A stretch of 24,063 nt of DNA. Source: a virus. This document shows, piece after piece, positions 15,784-24,063 of the stretch. Position 1 is the stretch's first letter. Every line of letters starts with the position of its first letter. The translations under genes were made by a program, and so were the position numbers. A model generated the notes under the pieces. The model saw only the letters and a program-made list of their open reading frames with translations. It had not been told where the DNA came from and made no database searches. The DNA lies in the IMG/VR virus record IMGVR_UViG_3300042480_001165, positions 1 through 24,063 of that record. One strand, given 5' to 3'.

Positions 15784-15894
15784 ATGACATGTTCATTTTG
15801 CGATAAATACGCTTATACAAGTATGATTAACAACAGGGGTATAAAATACAACCTTTGCGTAGATCATGTAAAAAAGATTAAAACAGAAGATTAA
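15784..15894 (+). CDS. Zinc-ribbon mini-protein (36 aa), leaderless
   Basis: Cys3, Cys6, Cys25 and His28 (MTCSFC ... NLCVDH) form a compact C-x2-C/C-x2-H site. The ATG is 6 bases after TATAAT and lacks a ribosome site, so it is probably leaderless. Its last 17 bases overlap the end of the convergent 15878 gene. Function is unknown. Confidence 0.62.
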   Translation: MTCSFCDKYAYTSMINNRGIKYNLCVDHVKKIKTED

Positions 15895-16690
15895 CTGTTT
15901 CTTTTATTTCTCTAGACAAATTCTCATAAACCTTCTTGTTGTACTCAGGAAGAATTCCATCTACTAAAGTATTTTTTTGTTTTTCTCCACCAGGACGAGC
16001 ATGCTTTGAAAGCAGAAATTCTTCTCCTATGGCGTCATAGACTATATCCTGAGTAACTGGTGGAAGCAACCCGTATTCTTCAGAAACTTGTCTTAAAACG
16101 GCTATGAAAGACTTTTCTGCTGCAGATCTAGCTTCATAGTCCAACATCGAATAGGCATATGTTTCAACATGTTTAAATTGTGGGAAAGGCTCAATAAATC
16201 TTATTTTTTTGGACGGGAACTCAGTAATAAAAGCATGTACATAATCTCTGACTATTTGCTCAGCATTATTGTACTTTGGAATCCAATTGCGACAATCTAC
16301 ATATCCTAAAAATGGCATAACAAGATCTGCATCTGTAACATCTGATAGATTAAAGAATAAATCAACAAGATCAGATCCTCCAATAAGATTTGGATATTCA
16401 GGATGAGTTGCAGCTAATTCATTTGAATCAATTGCATCTTCTGCGGCGGAGGATAGTAAATTTTGGTTTATATCTTCTCCCAAATCTAGGCCAAAGCACT
16501 TATATCCAGCACGTCCCCAGAAGTTAACTTCAATATTTGAGTCAACTAGGAATTTAGAGTTCTTCTCTTGAATTTCTGGGTTAAATCTGGTAAGATTTTC
16601 TATTGGGCCAAGATGTGCGTTAATATGTTGACCTTGAAGTCTAGCTGTTTGACAATCTCCAATTACTTGAACTTTTATTTTTTTATCCAT
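15878..16690 (-). CDS. Putative SGNH-hydrolase / WcbI-like enzyme (270 aa)
   Basis: The N terminus KVQVIGDCQTARLQG (residues 6-20) fits a first beta strand and nucleophile-type turn seen in SGNH hydrolases and in WcbI-like polysaccharide enzymes (G-x-C-Q). A middle segment ADLVMPFLGYVDCRNW and a late His in LLSKHARPGGEK fit the family layout, but the catalytic triad is not proven. It could act on glycans, for example removing or transferring an acyl group. The gene is apparently leaderless: the ATG lies 6 bases after TATAAT. It lies next to sulfotransferase genes, hinting at glycan decoration. Confidence 0.55.
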   Translation of the reverse strand: MDKKIKVQVIGDCQTARLQGQHINAHLGPIENLTRFNPEIQEKNSKFLVDSNIEVNFWGRAGYKCFGLDLGEDINQNLLSSAAEDAIDSNELAATHPEYPNLIGGSDLVDLFFNLSDVTDADLVMPFLGYVDCRNWIPKYNNAEQIVRDYVHAFITEFPSKKIRFIEPFPQFKHVETYAYSMLDYEARSAAEKSFIAVLRQVSEEYGLLPPVTQDIVYDAIGEEFLLSKHARPGGEKQKNTLVDGILPEYNKKVYENLSREIKETVNLLF

Positions 16691-16696
16691 ACAAAC

Positions 16697-16743
16697 ATTA
16701 TACTATTAAAGTATTGACATGACAATTTTTGTTATGTTACACT
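16697..16743. promoter_or_regulatory. Divergent promoters with adjacent -35 boxes
   Basis: Leftward: TTGTCA (16725-16720), 17-base spacer, TATAAT (16702-16697), reading the 16690 gene. Rightward: TTGACA (16714-16719), 18-base spacer, TACACT (16738-16743) with TGT as extended -10. The two -35 hexamers are directly next to each other, so the two polymerases probably exclude one another. Confidence 0.65.
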
Positions 16744-16945
16744 TAGTTTGCTTTGTGGGGGCTTACCCTGAAACTCAATATGTACCAGATAACATCTGTG
16801 GATATCGTTTTAGGAACTGCTTTCTCTATCTTTCCAAAAAGTTAAAATTTGGGGGGTAGGGGGGCTTTCCTAAAATCTAATATCCCCAGATAAAAAATTA
16901 CAAAGCATAAAGAAAACACAAAAGAAAAAGCGGGAGAGCTAAAAA
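16744..16945 (+). other. Leader region before the 16946 peptide and tRNA-Ile
   Basis: Transcription from the rightward promoter would give a roughly 195-base leader. It contains G-rich runs (about 16852-16870) and pyrimidine stretches. A weak frame from TTG 16753 (about 28 codons) is possible but unsupported. No known riboswitch is recognised. Confidence 0.35.
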
Positions 16946-17028: not shown

Positions 17029-17103
17029 GGGCCTATAGCTTAATCTGGTTAAAGCAATTGTCTTATATGCAATCGACTTTGGGTTCAAATCCCAATGGGC
17101 CTA
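17029..17103 (+). tRNA. tRNA-Ile (anticodon TAT, reads AUA)
   Basis: A cloverleaf is visible: acceptor GGGCCTA with TGGGCCT, D stem GCTT/AAGC, anticodon stem ATTGT/GCAAT with loop CTTATAT (anticodon TAT), and T arm TTGGG-TTCAAAT-CCCAA. CCA is not encoded. A UAU anticodon is unusual in bacteria, which normally read AUA with a lysidine-modified CAU tRNA. AUA codons are frequent in the genes of this window. Confidence 0.85.
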
Positions 17104-17104
17104 C

Positions 17105-17289: not shown

Positions 17290-17337
17290 TTTTCGGCTCA
17301 CTTTTCGCCGCACTTTTCACTCAACTGAAAGCATATA

Positions 17338-18063
17338 ATGCAATACGATTCTTTTTATTTTTTACATGTACCTAAAAGCGATGGTAGAAGATTTACCGAT
17401 AGTATAGTTATTCCTTTAAAAAATAGCAACCCAGAATTTACAGTGTACAACCAAGAAGAGTATATTCCTGTAAACGAAAACGATCAATCACCTTTTCATC
17501 ACCAAGGATGGGACTCAAGAATAACTGATAGCACATACATTGTAATGATAATGAGGGACCCAATCGAAAGAGCGGTAAGCTGGTATATAGATAGAATTAA
17601 AGCAGATGTCAAAAATACCCCAGGATATAATAAAAATACAAAGGTGCATTTGTTAAAAGATAAGTTTATAAATTATGTAAATACAGACTCAAGATTTTAT
17701 AATCCAGTAAGCAAATGCCTACTAAACGACTTAGGCAAAGACAGATCCTTTCTTACAAACAATAGTCCTATAAAAAATATAGATTTAGTGTTTGAAAGAG
17801 CGCTTAGAGTCAATATGATTATCAAAATGAATACTTTTATGGAATGCGACAAAAATCTTATATCTGAAAAAATAACAAAAGATTTATATCTCAATAAGAT
17901 AATACCCGATCTAGATGTTTTTAAAGAAACAGATTATTACACTAACTCTGAATCAAAAGAGCTATATTTATCTTTAACAGATTCAGATAAAGAAAATATA
18001 AAAAAGAATTTAATGTTAGACTACTATATATATAATAACGAGGATCTATTTTGGAAGCCATAA
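17338..18063 (+). CDS. Sulfotransferase-family protein, copy 1 (241 aa)
   Basis: Two PAPS-binding motifs of the Sulfotransfer_2-type family are visible: the 5'-phosphosulfate loop FYFLHVPKSDGRRF (about residues 6-19, like HIPKTGGT) and the 3'-phosphate motif RDPIERAVSWY (73-83). The C-terminal DYYIYNNEDLFWKP fits the family's end. It would transfer sulfate from PAPS to an acceptor, probably a sugar or tyrosine. The next gene is a paralogue whose start overlaps its last 13 bases. Confidence 0.75.
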   Translation: MQYDSFYFLHVPKSDGRRFTDSIVIPLKNSNPEFTVYNQEEYIPVNENDQSPFHHQGWDSRITDSTYIVMIMRDPIERAVSWYIDRIKADVKNTPGYNKNTKVHLLKDKFINYVNTDSRFYNPVSKCLLNDLGKDRSFLTNNSPIKNIDLVFERALRVNMIIKMNTFMECDKNLISEKITKDLYLNKIIPDLDVFKETDYYTNSESKELYLSLTDSDKENIKKNLMLDYYIYNNEDLFWKP

Positions 18064-18815
18064 AATATAATTCATTTTATTTTTTACATATGGCTAAATG
18101 TGATGGAAGAAGGTTTATAGATTCTATTGTTAAGCCTCTTATAAAATCAAATCCTGATTTAGAATGCTATACTGAGTATTATACTAAACATCATGAGTGG
18201 ATTTCTTCAGACAACCTTGCAATAAGAGAAGAAGATATGGCACACCAGGGTTGGGACTCAAGAATATCAGAAAACACCTATATTGTTTCAATACTTAGAG
18301 ATCCCATAGAAAGAGCTGCAAGTTGGTATGCTATGGTGGTAGACAATAAAGTAAAGGTTAAAATAGGTTCCAGGAAAGAAACAAATTTGCATCTAGATAA
18401 AAATAAATTTATTGATTTTGTAGCAAAAAATACTAGGTTCCATAATTACTATAGCAAAATGATTTTAAATGATTTTACAAATAATGGGTCTATTATATTT
18501 GACAACTCTTCTCTTAAAGACGAAGAAAATATTAAGTTAATACTATCCAGGATTAAAACAATTAATCTTCTTTTAAAAATGAAAGATCTTATTAATATTG
18601 ATAATGTGCAAATATCTAAAAAAATTATAGATGACTTAGGCAGCAATAGTTTTTATCCAGCTTTAGAAAAAAACAAAAACTCAAAACCTTACACTCTTCC
18701 TGCCTCTAAATTACTTTATGATTCTTTAACGGAAGATGATAAGGGTAAACTAAAACAGTATATGGATCTAGACTATGCTATATATAACGACAACTCCTTG
18801 TTTTGGAAACCATAA
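18051..18815 (+). CDS. Sulfotransferase-family protein, copy 2 (254 aa), TTG start
   Basis: This paralogue of the preceding gene has FYFLHMAKCDGRRF (about 9-22) and RDPIERAASWY (83-93), sharing HQGWDSRI and the LFWKP end. Ser is replaced by Cys in the first loop. The TTG start has GAGGA six bases upstream and overlaps the first copy, so the two are cotranslated. Divergence suggests different acceptors or a heteromeric enzyme; that is inference. Confidence 0.75.
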   Translation: MEAIKYNSFYFLHMAKCDGRRFIDSIVKPLIKSNPDLECYTEYYTKHHEWISSDNLAIREEDMAHQGWDSRISENTYIVSILRDPIERAASWYAMVVDNKVKVKIGSRKETNLHLDKNKFIDFVAKNTRFHNYYSKMILNDFTNNGSIIFDNSSLKDEENIKLILSRIKTINLLLKMKDLINIDNVQISKKIIDDLGSNSFYPALEKNKNSKPYTLPASKLLYDSLTEDDKGKLKQYMDLDYAIYNDNSLFWKP

Positions 18816-18830
18816 GGGCTATGGTATAAT
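18803..18830 (+). promoter_or_regulatory. Extended -10 promoter of leaderless gene 18836
   Basis: TTGGAA (18803-18808), a 16-base spacer ending TGG, and TATAAT (18825-18830) lie 5 bases before the ATG at 18836. The -35 lies inside the end of the upstream gene. Confidence 0.7.
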
Positions 18831-18835
18831 TAATT

Positions 18836-19903
18836 ATGGAATTTATAGAGCTAACAAAAGACGTACTGCTTATTAAGAATGCAGTAAATGACCCACAAAA
18901 ACTATATGATATTTTAAAAAAATCAAAAACAGAAGAGATTAACTTCTTTGGTCCTTGGACAGACTGGAAACCTTGGGGAGAATACTCTAAGGCATATCCA
19001 AGGCAAGAAGCTGGGTGGCAAGACTGCCCAACAGAAGGTGGACAGTTTGTAACAGAAGTTATGAACTCATTTTTTGCAGCTCTAAAATACTACAAAGAAA
19101 ATTGTTTGAATAAAGAATACTTTGAACTTTGGGGAGAAGATCCTAATATACCAACTTCATGGTTAGAGCTAGTTGACCAACCAGGATATTCAAGAGAAGA
19201 TACTCATATGTTTAAAAATCCAGCAAGATGGGAATACGGAGACCTTCTAATTGCAGAAACTATAAATACAAATCCAAAGAGTGCATATGCTATGGAATTT
19301 CATAAAGATAGAAGAATGTGGTTAACTGGAGCCCCCGCATTTTTTAACTATAATGTTTACATAAACGATGATTATGAAGGCGGCGAGATTCAGTTTATAG
19401 ATGAAGAGTCAGCTGAAAAGTCTTTTTATGTTGATCAAAATGGAGAAGAAAAAGAGTGCTGGATGATTGATGATCCAGTAATATACAAAATGGAAGCTGG
19501 AGATGGAATGTTATTTAGAACAGATCACCCACATTCAGTTTTTCCAATAAAAGGTCATAAGTTTTACGTTAGACATTTTTTAATGGCTAAACAGCCACAA
19601 GAGTTTAGAGACCTAAGACAATCTCTTTCCGAAGAAGACTTTGCTGCAAAGATGGCACAAATAGAAAAAGATGGATTTGAGAATAATCAGTGGCATGGTA
19701 GATTATTTGCTACAAAAGAAGATATAGATGATGCAGGACATCCAAGAACAAAGAAATTTGTTTTAAAGTCTGGTAACCGTGATCTTGTTTCAAAGCCAGG
19801 TAGATATTCTTATGATGAAAATGAATCTGCTATGCCTATATACGCAACAGATCATCTCTACGATTTTAATGATAGAAAAGACGATATTAAGCTAGAGGAT
19901 TAA
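18836..19903 (+). CDS. Large 2OG-Fe(II) oxygenase (355 aa), leaderless
   Basis: The iron ligands are His156 and Asp158 (AMEFHKDRRMW) and a distal His at 233 (TDHPHSVFPI), with Arg246 in KFYVRHF to bind 2-oxoglutarate. INDDYEGGEIQF is characteristic of the fold. The N-terminal 150 residues are extra relative to minimal phage oxygenases, and a C-terminal extension follows. The ATG is 5 bases after an extended -10, so the mRNA should be leaderless. The substrate is unknown; nearby sulfotransferases hint at a decoration pathway. Confidence 0.82.
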   Translation: MEFIELTKDVLLIKNAVNDPQKLYDILKKSKTEEINFFGPWTDWKPWGEYSKAYPRQEAGWQDCPTEGGQFVTEVMNSFFAALKYYKENCLNKEYFELWGEDPNIPTSWLELVDQPGYSREDTHMFKNPARWEYGDLLIAETINTNPKSAYAMEFHKDRRMWLTGAPAFFNYNVYINDDYEGGEIQFIDEESAEKSFYVDQNGEEKECWMIDDPVIYKMEAGDGMLFRTDHPHSVFPIKGHKFYVRHFLMAKQPQEFRDLRQSLSEEDFAAKMAQIEKDGFENNQWHGRLFATKEDIDDAGHPRTKKFVLKSGNRDLVSKPGRYSYDENESAMPIYATDHLYDFNDRKDDIKLED

Positions 19904-19904
19904 A

Positions 19905-20453
19905 TTAAATAATATTGGCAGTGCCGCTAGTAACTTCAGAAGCATGTTGTTCGCTAAACACTTCGCCTTCCCAATCTTCAGTTCCATCTTTAGGTGCTAT
20001 TCCATTTTGCCATTTTTGAACAGAAAAGAATACTCCACCTTCTGGCCCAAAGTCACCATTGTGCATATCTCCTGGTAAAATTCTTAAGAAGTCTCCTCTA
20101 TTTTTGGATTGATAAATTTTTGTTGTATCAACTAAATTAAAATCTTCTGTTTCTAGCTCACCATTTTTAAAGAAATTTATTTGACCACCAGCATAAACTT
20201 CAAAGTTATCCATATTTGGATGTTTGTGTTTTGGAATAATTGAGTCTGGATCCATTATTACTAATTGAACTTGAAAAGGACCCTTGGTGTACCAGTTTAA
20301 AGTATAAGCTCTTTTTTCTTCATTAAAATATGTAACCTTAAAAGGTTTAAGAAAAGGCATTAATCCAATATGTGGACCAGAATTTAAAAACCAGTTTAAA
20401 AAATCTTCAAGTGAGTGAGACTCATTCCAATCTTGATCTTTAAATATTGACAT
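19905..20453 (-). CDS. Cupin-domain protein (182 aa)
   Basis: Cupin motif 1 is PKHKHPNMDNFEVYAGG (two His and a Glu as metal ligands) and motif 2 is LPGDMHNGDFG (distal His). The fold binds a metal and could act as an isomerase, dioxygenase or sensor; no substrate can be named. The start has GGGGAG eight bases upstream. It ends one base from the convergent oxygenase gene and lies 16 bases after the 20470 gene. Confidence 0.75.
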   Translation of the reverse strand: MSIFKDQDWNESHSLEDFLNWFLNSGPHIGLMPFLKPFKVTYFNEEKRAYTLNWYTKGPFQVQLVIMDPDSIIPKHKHPNMDNFEVYAGGQINFFKNGELETEDFNLVDTTKIYQSKNRGDFLRILPGDMHNGDFGPEGGVFFSVQKWQNGIAPKDGTEDWEGEVFSEQHASEVTSGTANII

Positions 20454-20727: not shown

Positions 20728-20918
20728 CTATTTTGTATATCAGGAAAATTTTCTACAAGATTGTCTAGAACTTTTTCCATACACTTTTTAATAACTTCAT
20801 CCATAACTTCAATCTGTGATTCAGCAGATGTTTTTTCAACACCACTTTCAATAGCTAAGTCTACATTTGCTTTCTTAAAAGAGTGCACCATTATGCTTAA
20901 AACTAAATCTTTATTCAT
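20718..20918 (-). CDS. Hypothetical helical protein (66 aa)
   Basis: A strong ribosome site GGAGGAA precedes the ATG, which overlaps the upstream gene by 8 bases. The product is helical (MVHSFKKANVDLAIESGVEK; MDEVIKKCMEKVLDNLVENF). It is the last gene of the operon from 22079. Function is unknown. Confidence 0.65.
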   Translation of the reverse strand: MNKDLVLSIMVHSFKKANVDLAIESGVEKTSAESQIEVMDEVIKKCMEKVLDNLVENFPDIQNSVG

Positions 20919-21123
20919 TTTCTTCCTCCGCTCTAAATGCTGGGCTGGGACCTAGCAAAAAACCTTCTTTGTGATATTCTATCATTTTTTTTATTTTAAT
21001 GTCATCCTCTTCGCCTCTAGATTGTATATTTGCAATTAAGGTAAGCACGTCGTAAATCCTATGTAGCATTATATAGTTAACCATAGGAAGATTATCTTCT
21101 AGATTATCTCTATTTTCATTCAT
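20911..21123 (-). CDS. Hypothetical helical protein (70 aa)
   Basis: It overlaps both neighbours by 8 bases. The product is a helical acidic protein (MVNYIMLHRIYDVLTLIANI; GEEDDIKIKKMIEYHKEGFL). A heptad-like pattern in the first half could give a coiled coil. Function is unknown. Confidence 0.62.
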   Translation of the reverse strand: MNENRDNLEDNLPMVNYIMLHRIYDVLTLIANIQSRGEEDDIKIKKMIEYHKEGFLLGPSPAFRAEEENE

Positions 21124-21307
21124 CTTTATTTTTTAGGCTTTCTATAGCCTCATCAATTGTTGAAGCCCCTTTTAACTTTAAATCTTCTAAATATGTAACA
21201 AATGAATTTAAAACTCTTTCACTAATTAAAATTGTATTCATATGCACACACGGAATGCTTCTAGCTATCTGCTTTCTTATCTCTAAGTTATATTGACTTT
21301 CCTGCAT
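21116..21307 (-). CDS. Hypothetical helical protein (63 aa)
   Basis: The product (LEIRKQIARSIPCVHMNTIL; FVTYLEDLKLKGASTIDEAI) is helical and similar in size and style to its two downstream neighbours. It overlaps the zinc-ribbon gene by 20 bases. Function is unknown. Confidence 0.62.
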   Translation of the reverse strand: MQESQYNLEIRKQIARSIPCVHMNTILISERVLNSFVTYLEDLKLKGASTIDEAIESLKNKDE

Positions 21308-21518: not shown

Positions 21519-22079
21519 CTAACTCTTAGATGGAAACTTGCTTAGCCACTCTTTTGTTCGAGGAGTTAAGCCTTTCCATGACGACCAATCTTGACCGCCA
21601 TTGGTCATATAATACGTTATCTCTGCGTTGATTGCTGGATCAAATAACGAATAGTTACTGTCCAGTTTGAATTTTTCTTTACGATCATTACCTAGGTTTC
21701 CCAACATGTTAATCTGAAAAATTCCATAGGAACTGTCTCCAGTTTTCCTGTTGCCGTTATAAGCCATTGGGCGTCCATTAGACTCCTTTTTAGCTACAGC
21801 CCACGCCATTTTAAGGGCGCTACCCTCAAAGCCTACAGCCTTGAGAAGTTCAACCAATTCTTTGTCTGTTAAAGACTCTGATGGTTTCCACACAGTATTG
21901 CTGAATTGCTCCAGCTTTTCCTTGTTAAGTTGTGCTTCGGTTTTTACATCTGGTTTTACAACCAGAGCAGATGCTGATTGAATTATTTCTGGTTGACCAG
22001 CAAATAAAAACAATACAAACACTGATATTGCAACATAGTGATGTAAAACATCGCTAAGTTTTTGTTTTATATTCTCCAT
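21519..22079 (-). CDS. Membrane-anchored muralytic enzyme, SLT/lysozyme-like (186 aa)
   Basis: The C-terminal domain has AWAVAKKESNGRPMAYN with a catalytic Glu (about residue 99) followed by GDSSYGIFQIN, the core of lytic transglycosylase SLT/goose-type lysozyme folds. Residues 14-28 form a hydrophobic N-terminal helix (signal or signal-anchor), so export does not require a holin. The ATG at 22079 has GGAGG eight bases upstream; the ATG at 22085 and TTG at 22094 are too close to or overlap this site. It could be an endolysin or a cell-wall entry enzyme; it heads an operon to 20718 behind TTGACA-18-TATTCT. Confidence 0.78.
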   Translation of the reverse strand: MENIKQKLSDVLHHYVAISVFVLFLFAGQPEIIQSASALVVKPDVKTEAQLNKEKLEQFSNTVWKPSESLTDKELVELLKAVGFEGSALKMAWAVAKKESNGRPMAYNGNRKTGDSSYGIFQINMLGNLGNDRKEKFKLDSNYSLFDPAINAEITYYMTNGGQDWSSWKGLTPRTKEWLSKFPSKS

Positions 22080-22112
22080 AGGCATTTCCTCCAATAGAGA
22101 TAACGAACTATA

Positions 22113-22297: not shown

Positions 22298-24063
22298 TTG
22301 TCAAATACTATTGCAAACCCGTATGAAAATTTTATTGCGTTATCACGTTACGCTAGATGGATTCCAGAAGAGAACCGTCGTGAAACGTGGGGTGAAACGG
22401 TGGATAGATATTTTGGCTTTATGCTAAACCACTTGAAAGAAAATTATAATTACATTCCAACTGAAAAGCTTGTAGCGGAATTAAAAGACGGTGTATTTAA
22501 AAGAAACGTTATGCCCTCTATGCGCTCCGTAATGACTTCAGGAGCAGCATTAGAAAGAGATAATGTAGCAGGCTACAATTGTTCATTTGTACCAGTTGAT
22601 TCGCCAAGATCTTTTGATGAAACCATGTATATTCTTATGTGCGGAACAGGTGTTGGTTTTTCTGTTGAATATAAGTATATTAACAAGCTTCCTTCCGTCC
22701 CAGAAACATTTGAAAAGTCTACAACAGTAATTACAGTAGAAGATTCAAAGCAAGGTTGGGCAAAAGCTTACCGTGAGCTTCTTGCATTACTTTGGTCAGG
22801 ACAAATTCCAGCAGTTGATGTTTCAAAGGTTCGCCCAGCTGGCGCACGTTTAAAAACAATGGGAGGCAGATCTTCAGGTCCTCAACCTTTGGTCAATCTT
22901 TTTGATTTTACAATCGCAAAGTTTAAATCAGCAGCAGGAAGAAACTTAAAGCCCATAGAGGCGCATGACATTATGTGCAAAATTGGTGAAGTTGTTGTTG
23001 TTGGAGGGGTTCGTCGATCAGCTATGATTTCTCTTTCAAATATTAACGATATTGAAATGGCCGCAGCTAAATCAGGAAACTGGTGGGAAAACAATACGCA
23101 ACGTGCTCTTTCAAATAACTCTGTAGCTTATTCTCGCAAGCCAGACATGGAACAATTTATTGCAGAATGGAAATCCCTTTATGATTCAAAATCAGGAGAG
23201 CGTGGAATATATAATGTTGCAGCAGCTCAAAAGCAAGCCTCAAAGTATGGACGAAGAGATCCAGAAATTCATTACGGAACAAACCCTTGCTCAGAAATTA
23301 TTTTGCGTCCTTATCAATTTTGTAATCTTTCAGAAGTCGTACTACGTGAAAGCGATACAAAGAAAGATATTGAGCGCAAAGTTGAGCTTGCAACAATCCT
23401 TGGAACCTGGCAAGCAACATTAACAGATTTTAAGTATCTTAGAAAAATTTGGAAAGATAACACAGAAGAGGAAAGGCTTTTGGGCGTTTCCCTTACTGGA
23501 CAGTTTGGTCATAAGTTTATGTCTGGAAAAGAAGACATGGTTGCATTAGAGGCTTTTTTAATGTCTATGCGTGAAAAAGCAAGAGACACAAATAAAGAAG
23601 AGGCTAGCAAGATAGGAATTCCAGAGTCAGCAGCAATTACATGCGTAAAACCTTCTGGAACAGTATCTCAGCTTGTAGGAGTATCTTCAGGAATGCATCC
23701 ATGGCATTCTCCATACTACATTCGAACAGTTCGTGGATCTAAAGGAGATCCTATTTCTGTTTTTTTAAAAGAAGTTGGAATTCCAGTAGAAGATGATGTT
23801 ATGAAGCCAAATGAAACTTATGTTTTTTCATTTCCAGTAAAAGCTCCAGAAGGCGCAATTGTTAGAAGCGACCTGACTGCCCTAGATCACTTAAACACTT
23901 GGTTAATTTATCAACGTGCATGGTGTGAACACAAGCCATCTATTACCGTTTCTGTAAAAGAAGATGAGTGGATGGAAGTGGGCGCCTGGGTATACAAGCA
24001 CTTTGATGAAGTTTCTGGAATCTCATTTTTGCCTCATTCAGATCATACTTATAAGCAAGCCCC
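22298..24063 (+). CDS. nrdJ: Class II adenosylcobalamin-dependent ribonucleotide reductase (RTPR-type), 3' end outside window
   Basis: The frame is open from TTG 22298 (AAAAAGG eight bases upstream) to the window end, 588 codons. The N terminus YARWIPEENRRETWGETVDRY, the segment AGYNCSFV (Cys95), MCGTGVGFSVE, and the catalytic loop NPCSEIILRPYQFCNLSE (Asn329, Cys331, Glu333, Cys342) match the monomeric RTPR-type reductase; the 11-residue spacing between the thiyl Cys and the second redox Cys equals that of Lactobacillus RTPR. ITCVKPSGTVSQ and FLPHSDHTYKQAP follow. It supplies deoxyribonucleotides for phage replication and needs host or imported B12, but no oxygen. No intein is visible. Confidence 0.93.
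   Translation, partial: MSNTIANPYENFIALSRYARWIPEENRRETWGETVDRYFGFMLNHLKENYNYIPTEKLVAELKDGVFKRNVMPSMRSVMTSGAALERDNVAGYNCSFVPVDSPRSFDETMYILMCGTGVGFSVEYKYINKLPSVPETFEKSTTVITVEDSKQGWAKAYRELLALLWSGQIPAVDVSKVRPAGARLKTMGGRSSGPQPLVNLFDFTIAKFKSAAGRNLKPIEAHDIMCKIGEVVVVGGVRRSAMISLSNINDIEMAAAKSGNWWENNTQRALSNNSVAYSRKPDMEQFIAEWKSLYDSKSGERGIYNVAAAQKQASKYGRRDPEIHYGTNPCSEIILRPYQFCNLSEVVLRESDTKKDIERKVELATILGTWQATLTDFKYLRKIWKDNTEEERLLGVSLTGQFGHKFMSGKEDMVALEAFLMSMREKARDTNKEEASKIGIPESAAITCVKPSGTVSQLVGVSSGMHPWHSPYYIRTVRGSKGDPISVFLKEVGIPVEDDVMKPNETYVFSFPVKAPEGAIVRSDLTALDHLNTWLIYQRAWCEHKPSITVSVKEDEWMEVGAWVYKHFDEVSGISFLPHSDHTYKQA

Follow-up and report, generated by a model that had tools for sequence, protein, structure and literature searches.

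A tandem pair of probable sulfotransferase genes behind a conserved leader in an uncultured phage

The presence of two paralogous sulfotransferase genes, one directly after the other in a phage genome, raises the question of whether both encode enzymes and of what such enzymes would modify. Phage sulfotransferases had been called rarely described in a first-pass annotation of this DNA, which is too strong, as phrog_3347, the viral models of BFVD and several papers on auxiliary metabolic genes contain them. Studies of viromes from estuaries, glacier ice and corals (PMC12285232, PMC13079714, PMC8290583, PMC11309003) list such genes, in the excerpts available, among the auxiliary metabolic genes. 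In OM43 phages, Sulfotransfer_3 genes are found beside 2OG oxygenases, and the available part of that report states that their function 'remains unclear' (PMC10580990). Here, we analysed a stretch of 24,063 nucleotides (IMG/VR record IMGVR_UViG_3300042480_001165, positions 1 to 24,063), hereafter the window. The pair represents a common type of enzyme, here encoded by a phage; its fold is well supported by predicted models, and its activity and acceptor are predictions. The tandem pair and the proposed exchangeable slot are, as far as we know, new.

The gene pair and its recurrence

The tandem sulfotransferase observation is confirmed. The coordinates and lengths of both genes, named ST1 and ST2 (Table 1), their 13-base overlap (18051-18063) and the TTG start of the second gene were all as noted at first pass. 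This TTG lies within the last ST1 codons (TTT TGG, shifted by one frame), and the two proteins are 45% identical in an end-to-end alignment (E 1e-67, single comparison). Upstream from the TTG, the Shine-Dalgarno-like GAGG of the window is found at the same distance of 7 bases in L002 and L003, and as GAAG in L007; translation of ST1 and ST2 may be coupled through this site. The RDPIERAxSWY motif and the LFWKP ends are present in both proteins, as claimed, and a C-terminal LFW is family-wide (F238 in 77 of 77 members of at least 220 residues) and no hallmark of the tandem. Both also keep the PAPS loop, in a non-canonical form (HVPKSDGRRF in ST1, HMAKCDGRRF in ST2).

Table 1. Features of the window around the tandem pair
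Feature	Position	Strand	Basis or remark
ORF earlier called WcbI/SGNH-like	15878..16690	-	no family match
tRNA-Ile (TAT), left of slot	17029..17104	+	ARAGORN; Rfam tRNA 66.6 bits
Conserved leader element	17290..17321	+	TTTTCGGCTCACTTTTCGCCGCACTTTTCACT, ends 16 bases 5' of ST1 ATG
ST1 (P0001), first sulfotransferase gene	17338..18063	+	ATG, 241 aa
GAGG, possible ST2 ribosome-binding site	18040..18043	+	7 bases 5' of TTG, within ST1; sequence
ST2 (P0002), second sulfotransferase gene	18051..18815	+	TTG start within ST1 end, 254 aa
Putative 2OG-Fe(II) oxygenase, directly after ST2	18836..19903	+	PF13640 19.7 bits, under 27-bit cut-off
Putative cupin-like protein	19905..20453	-	sub-threshold PCO_ADO 14.9/27 bits, WbuC-cupin 16/42 bits
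Two small backbone ORFs right of slot (20911-21123, 21116-21307)	20911..21307	-	tblastn matches beside relatives' endolysin
Endolysin-like transglycosylase (SLT_3), right slot border	21519..22094	-	PF18896 54.4 bits
Class II-type ribonucleotide reductase, cut by window end	22298..24061	+	phrog_367 600.6 bits

When the pair was sought in other phages, a check proposed earlier, it was found in four further viral contigs, each with another IMG taxon number. In 43803_002280 and 34280_001050, both genes are 98-100% identical to those of the window; in 32292_001117, the identity is 83% for ST1 and 80% for ST2; and in 32288_003364 orthology is limited to the second gene (78%), the first being another paralogue. 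The TTG start and the 13-base overlap of the second gene are found in all five pair contigs, the window included. Compared with L003, dN/dS is 0.10 for ST1 and 0.13 for ST2 at dS values of 0.8-1.0, and the comparison of ST2 with L007 gives 0.14; the ratios obtained with the near-identical L002 (0.22 for ST1 and 0.39 for ST2) derive from very few changes. Since the pair and its TTG start are conserved and dN/dS is low, both genes are maintained as proteins under purifying selection. Misassembly of one gene into two is ruled out by the recurrence of the pair under the four other IMG taxon numbers, and chance ORFs by fold matches, conservation and dN/dS. A search for larger arrays with a junction pattern (exact matches only) and the family profile yielded no locus with more than two copies among the family loci examined, which are incomplete.

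Family membership, predicted fold and proposed catalysis

ST1 matches PF03567 (Sulfotransfer_2) with 28.9 bits, above the cut-off of 22 bits, and ST2 with 18.5 bits, below this cut-off; ST2 is tied to PF03567 only through its identity with ST1 and its predicted fold. Sulfotransfer_1 was rejected as a better family, no record scoring above its cut-off. The profile phrog_3347, named 'Galactose-3-O-sulfotransferase', matches ST2 (E 1.2e-4) and not ST1, and of 39 family members compared with it 30 reach E 0.01 or better; its scores against the family are low, and its name is an annotation with no tested function.

With a family profile constructed from ten members, we found a relative encoded in at least 75 viral contigs, a total that is a lower bound, relatives having been sought with short peptide patterns. 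Counting one locus per contig, adding the window and excluding the cyanobacterial L092, this amounts to 76 loci with 81 members, 77 of which have at least 220 residues; two copies are present in 5 of the 76 loci and one copy in 71. This subfamily of uncultured phages (at least 75 contigs and the window), single-copy outside the five-contig pair clade, is new here. Among 50,697 phage records, tblastn gave no match for ST1 or ST2 (E 1e-3) nor for the members of L048 and L065 (E 0.01), and cultured relatives are therefore visible through folds only.

When 24 positions were examined in the 77 members of at least 220 residues, H10, K13, G16, H55, W58, T66, Y67, R73, P75, S81, D228 and F238 were invariant (77/77). 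These include the lysine of the 5'-PAPS loop (K13) with G16, and R73 and S81 of the 3'-PAPS segment, positions which we take to bind PAPS as they do in known enzymes. R18 and R78 each occur in 10 of the 77 members, and A12 and C14 each in 5, P0002 among them. The ST2 loop reads A-K-C-D-G against P-K-T-G-G, and AKCDG is found in all the ST2 orthologue sequences listed. It could be argued that only one member of the pair is an enzyme and that the other, ST2 or ST1, is a degenerate partner with a binding or regulatory role, as ST2 carries A12 and C14 in its loop and scores under the Pfam cut-off. However, ST2 retains every family-invariant residue, its A12 and C14 are fixed in orthologues, and it is under purifying selection, so that we consider this explanation improbable.

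A structure prediction lacking a PAPS-type fold had been named beforehand as the refuting result; the predicted models do have such a fold. The AlphaFold2 models have a mean pLDDT of 86.4 and a pTM of 0.85 for ST1 (39-row alignment, weak loop at residues 46-53) and of 84.3 and 0.84 for ST2 (38-row alignment, weak loop at residues 43-63). Both ligand-free models are nearest to PAP-bound heparan sulfate (HS) sulfotransferases: the best PDB folds, re-aligned by VIA-align 2, are those of the HS 2-O-sulfotransferase HS2ST (3f5f, 4ndz) and the HS 6-O-sulfotransferase HS6ST (5t03, 5t05), with Z of 12.5-12.8 for ST1 and 12.8-13.2 for ST2, rmsd of 3.9-4.4 and 194-215 residues aligned. Sequence identity to the solved enzymes in the structural alignments is 12-19%. 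The next fold group (3-O-sulfotransferases, NDST1, SULT) reaches Z of 9.4-9.6 or below. Moreover, Foldseek placed HS6ST first for both models (E 1.9e-4 and 1.4e-3, TM-scores of about 0.5), and a sequence search of the PDB with the family profile gave HS6ST3 as the top match (E 7.3e-5). Among the viral models of BFVD, the best matches listed are named sulfotransferase and come from uncultured Caudovirales and giant viruses, followed by those of Synechococcus phage ACG-2014f and Prochlorococcus phage P-SSM7. The predicted models thus bear out the proposal that the two paralogues are sulfotransferases and have a PAPS-type fold. The sulfotransferase fold is related to that of P-loop kinases, and one could imagine that ST1 and ST2 are such kinases or other nucleotide-binding proteins; the best matches of both models, throughout the 50 entries listed, are sulfotransferases, which makes this highly improbable.

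ST1 and ST2 are probably PAPS-dependent O-sulfotransferases of the Sulfotransfer_2 type. Duplication and divergence within one phage lineage would have given rise to two paralogues translated as a coupled pair. By analogy with the solved enzymes, PAPS would be bound at a P-loop-like strand-loop (H10-x-x-K13-x-x-G16) and at the R73...S81 segment, and H55 would likely act as the general base that takes a proton from the acceptor hydroxyl. H55, invariant in 77 of 77 members, would be the equivalent of His142 of HS2ST, although profile matches to HS2ST stop short of the His142 region. His142 is the putative catalytic base of HS2ST, and the H142A variant keeps <1% activity according to the available part of the report (PMC6094399). 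Catalysis by ST1 and ST2 may be expected from the conserved residues and the models. Each paralogue might sulfate a different position or acceptor, as suggested by their divergence (45% identity) together with the separate conservation of ST1 and ST2. Neither protein has a membrane-like stretch (highest 19-residue Kyte-Doolittle mean of 0.74 for ST1 and 0.95 for ST2), and the acceptor should therefore be accessible from the cytoplasm. As a whole, the explanation that we favour, and hold to be fairly likely, is that of coupled cytoplasmic PAPS-dependent O-sulfotransferases of the Sulfotransfer_2/HS 2-O-/6-O- type, duplicated in-lineage, whose acceptor is likely a glycan.

A search of eight records of the endolysin-reductase lineage gave no APS kinase domain, and PAPS must therefore be supplied by the host or by a portion of the phage genome that lies outside these records. 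In 10 of 19 sulfotransferase-bearing records searched (L093:1501-2268; L094:994-1752, minus strand), a fusion protein combines an APS-kinase-like domain at the N-terminus with a half resembling a nucleotidyltransferase (GRYQPWHEGH); such fusions are also found in isolate phages of Stenotrophomonas, Xanthomonas and Clavibacter. Phage-made PAPS was set aside as evidence, since the fusion is present in 0/8 endolysin-reductase records and in other phages too.

The conserved leader and the variable slot

The leader that precedes ST1 matches, as a pattern, 15 further viral contigs, once per stretch fetched, with 0 matches expected in the shuffled window. This element measures 32-35 nt and is located in relatives at L014:2196 on, L015:6244 on and also in L096-L106. 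A repeated regulatory element was rejected, the window having one copy only at up to 3 mismatches. A structured RNA was rejected as well, as the hairpin was not above shuffles in 4/4 cases and the Rfam matches were tRNAs only.

An endolysin gene is found in all 16 leader-bearing contigs and a reductase gene in 14, the stretches fetched for L104 and L106 stopping before the reductase. The endolysin search was given 13 of the 15 loci and found the gene in 11, the two others being L099 and L105; the contigs of L099, L105, L019 and L101 are covered by L015, L016, L002 and L044. In the 11 loci, 1.5-4.2 kb separate the leader from the start of the endolysin gene. The leader is followed by ST1 in the window, L019, L021 and L022, by another sulfotransferase paralogue in L020, by a 2OG oxygenase in L096 and L103, by a double 2OG protein in L098 and L104, by a JmjC/cupin-like protein in L099 and L105 (with the same start in L101, which is incomplete), and by small ORFs without assignment in L097, L102 and L106; in L100, no ORF of 60 aa was found up to 90 bases past the leader. 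A family sulfotransferase is present in nine of the 16 contigs, five times as a pair after the leader and four times as a single gene before it (in L014, which is the contig of L103, and in L015, L016 and L044). A pair located behind a shared leader that precedes different genes in 16 contigs with one endolysin-reductase backbone is new here.

The window and L007 have the same leader, and their reductases are 98%, their endolysins 93% and the following oxygenases 94% identical, whereas ST2 is 78% and the first sulfotransferase just 38% identical. Between the window and L014, the reductases are 87% and the sulfotransferases 33-36% identical. In the tree, the six window-clade genes are found together (support 100/98), and L014 and L015, of the same backbone lineage, group with WhiB/Hsp20-bearing contigs (98/96); long branches are flagged, that of the L007 first gene included, and the detailed order is unsafe. 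The dS of ST1 and ST2 relative to L003, given above, is also higher than that of neighbouring genes (0.2-0.6). The most economical interpretation is that this slot gains, loses and exchanges sulfotransferase genes.

The contents of the slot were then compared among relatives. Near the leader, TylF-type O-methyltransferases above cut-off are encoded in L097 and L102, another methyltransferase in L100, and 2OG oxygenases in L096 and L098. Raw counts over the 76 loci are 15 for a carbamoyltransferase, 14 for a cluster of GlcNAc-type (PF11397-type) glycosyltransferases and 34 for the main 2OG cluster, the family of each cluster being assigned on a single representative and one representative of the 2OG cluster (L018) having no Pfam match. 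We interpret the interval behind the leader as an exchangeable cargo slot for decorating enzymes, which are most likely directed to glycans. In a more far-reaching reading, which we regard as rather doubtful, the interval from the leader to the endolysin and reductase would be a dedicated exchange site, where uncultured actinophages swap enzyme sets (sulfotransferase subfamilies, 2OG oxygenases, O-methyltransferases and the carbamoyltransferase). The glycans displayed by the phage or imposed on the host would then differ, being variously sulfated, methylated and carbamoylated, and the tandem would give a doubly sulfated product.

In the window itself, oxygenases and a WcbI/SGNH-like enzyme had been proposed as neighbours of the pair. 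For the oxygenases, the H-x-D...H pattern is present in the gene directly after ST2 and the Pfam match is sub-threshold only (Table 1). The assignment to WcbI/SGNH could not be retained, the ORF having no match in Pfam (E 1), PHROGs or NCBIfam, and none in the PDB below E 1.3. The earlier suggestion that such enzymes would make or modify a sulfated glycan or virion protein is plausible. At 18803-18830, the sequence resembles a promoter, with TG in front of its second hexamer (consensus match only).

Several other features of these loci were observed. A TATAAT (window 18825-18836) ends 5 bases 5' of the ATG of the 2OG gene, as in leaderless transcripts, and in L014:2066-2079 a TATAAT is likewise located 5-7 bases 5' of a small-ORF ATG. 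Beside tRNA-Ile(TAT), a non-coding stretch with GGGGGG runs (window 16735-16900 compared with L014:1190-1335) has a mean column identity of 81%. The carbamoyltransferase always occurs with a partner ORF, c20, in the 15 of 15 loci having either (L024, L026, L027, L054, L062, L067, L083 and L085 among them); c20 has no Pfam match and is SGNH-like by eye. In L032, L060 and L065, five to seven genes of the 2OG-oxygenase cluster surround a single sulfotransferase and a DUF6065 gene. Finally, other ORFs in the slot of relatives are sulfotransferase-like by motif (PRSG..., RDPxE), namely L098:2196-2804, L100:7555-8184 (minus strand) and L102:1971-2567. Among these motif-only ORFs (L098/L104, L100 and L102), that of L102 alone has a Pfam match, a sub-threshold one to Sulfotransfer_3 (18/27 bits), and none matches PHROGs.

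Candidate acceptors and relation to known systems

The reductase of the window is 67% identical to that of Jay2Jay and other Streptomyces phages, and for the DUF932 protein the identity is about 51%; because of this relatedness, the window phage is probably an actinophage. The G+C content of the window is 37%. The family has a single match among genome contigs, to L092 from a cyanobacterial MAG; this match is weak and uninformative on the host.

The acceptor is most likely a glycan, located either on the host envelope or on the virion. A glycan is favoured by the further contents of the slot (carbamoyltransferase, TylF-type O-methyltransferase and, in other contigs, GlcNAc-type glycosyltransferase) and by the glycosyltransferases that the closest cultured phages have at the matching position, genes 37-39 and 46 of Jay2Jay being the context counted here. 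Carbamoyl-, O-methyl- and glycosyltransferases as well as 2OG oxygenases often decorate glycans.

A host surface glycan could be sulfated during infection, which would block adsorption of later phages or trapping of the progeny. The enzymes, predicted to be cytoplasmic, could use lipid- or nucleotide-linked precursors, the slot adjoins the endolysin gene, the Jay2Jay glycosyltransferases sit in the matching region, and rapid turnover of the slot fits an arms race. On the other hand, the host is taken as an actinobacterium by reductase and DUF932 relatedness only, and we know of no sulfated glycan of this presumed host. In addition, homology between the endolysins of Jay2Jay and the window was looked for and none was detectable, so that the two loci are alike in position only. 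We consider a host glycan possible, though somewhat short of likely.

The target could also be the virion itself, the phage adding sulfate to a glycan or a hydroxylated residue on its capsid or tail proteins. In agreement with this, the single sulfotransferase of L060/L061 comes after an ORF end that resembles, by eye, a tail-fibre chaperone domain, that of L032 follows a tail-like ORF, and collagen-like ORFs are located near the sulfotransferase in L017 and L018. Possible capsid glycosylation is also mentioned, in the part of the report available, for actinophages with glycosyltransferases (PMC11256854). However, structural genes are absent from the slot of the window and collagen-like ORFs are found in just 2 of 76 loci, which leaves sulfation of the virion tentative and slightly less probable than that of the host. 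Neither a sulfated virion nor a sulfated host glycan imposed by a phage was found in the literature searched, and to our knowledge none is on record.

A third type of acceptor would be a small molecule or another non-glycan compound, such as a metabolite, hydroxylated amino acid or modified nucleobase, whose hydroxyl would come from the 2OG oxygenase. The putative 2OG oxygenase gene directly 3' of ST2 and the 2OG-type genes of many slots are consistent with such a role, and the association of oxygenase, sulfotransferase and carbamoyltransferase is also known from natural-product clusters. Yet the fold match to polysaccharide sulfotransferases is well above that to the SULT, NodH-like and glycopeptide sulfotransferase types, and the slot has no biosynthetic core enzyme; this acceptor type is unlikely, and a glycan is preferred.

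If a glycan is indeed the acceptor, these phages would have enzymes that add a negatively charged group to it and a genomic site for exchanging such enzymes. This would provide a testable handle on the function of phage sulfotransferases, left open in the available part of PMC10580990. The two first-position paralogues found behind one leader, in phages with reductases 98% identical, would constitute a natural allele panel, with which one may ask what phages gain by altering surface chemistry.

In the literature searched, outside which most subscription journals lie, we found no account of a tandem sulfotransferase pair in a phage. In the excerpts available of the papers on sulfotransferases as auxiliary metabolic genes, a Pfam type is named only in PMC10580990 (Sulfotransfer_3, a different family), and neither a tandem pair nor an exchange slot is mentioned. 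The left arm of Jay2Jay (Samistivirus, Stanwilliamsviridae) has a related reductase and DUF932 protein and, left of the reductase, an endolysin and cargo genes, with a nucleotidyltransferase and three glycosyltransferases; tblastn detected no sulfotransferase in this phage. Compared with HS6ST (5t03/5t05) and HS2ST (3f5f/4ndz), the phage pair has in common a fold of about 200 residues, the PAPS-loop and RDPxxR...S segments, and an invariant histidine between the PAPS segments. It differs from these enzymes by the absence of a membrane anchor, a size of about 240-254 aa, a PKSDGRR or AKCDGRR loop, and its phage-borne, tandem arrangement.
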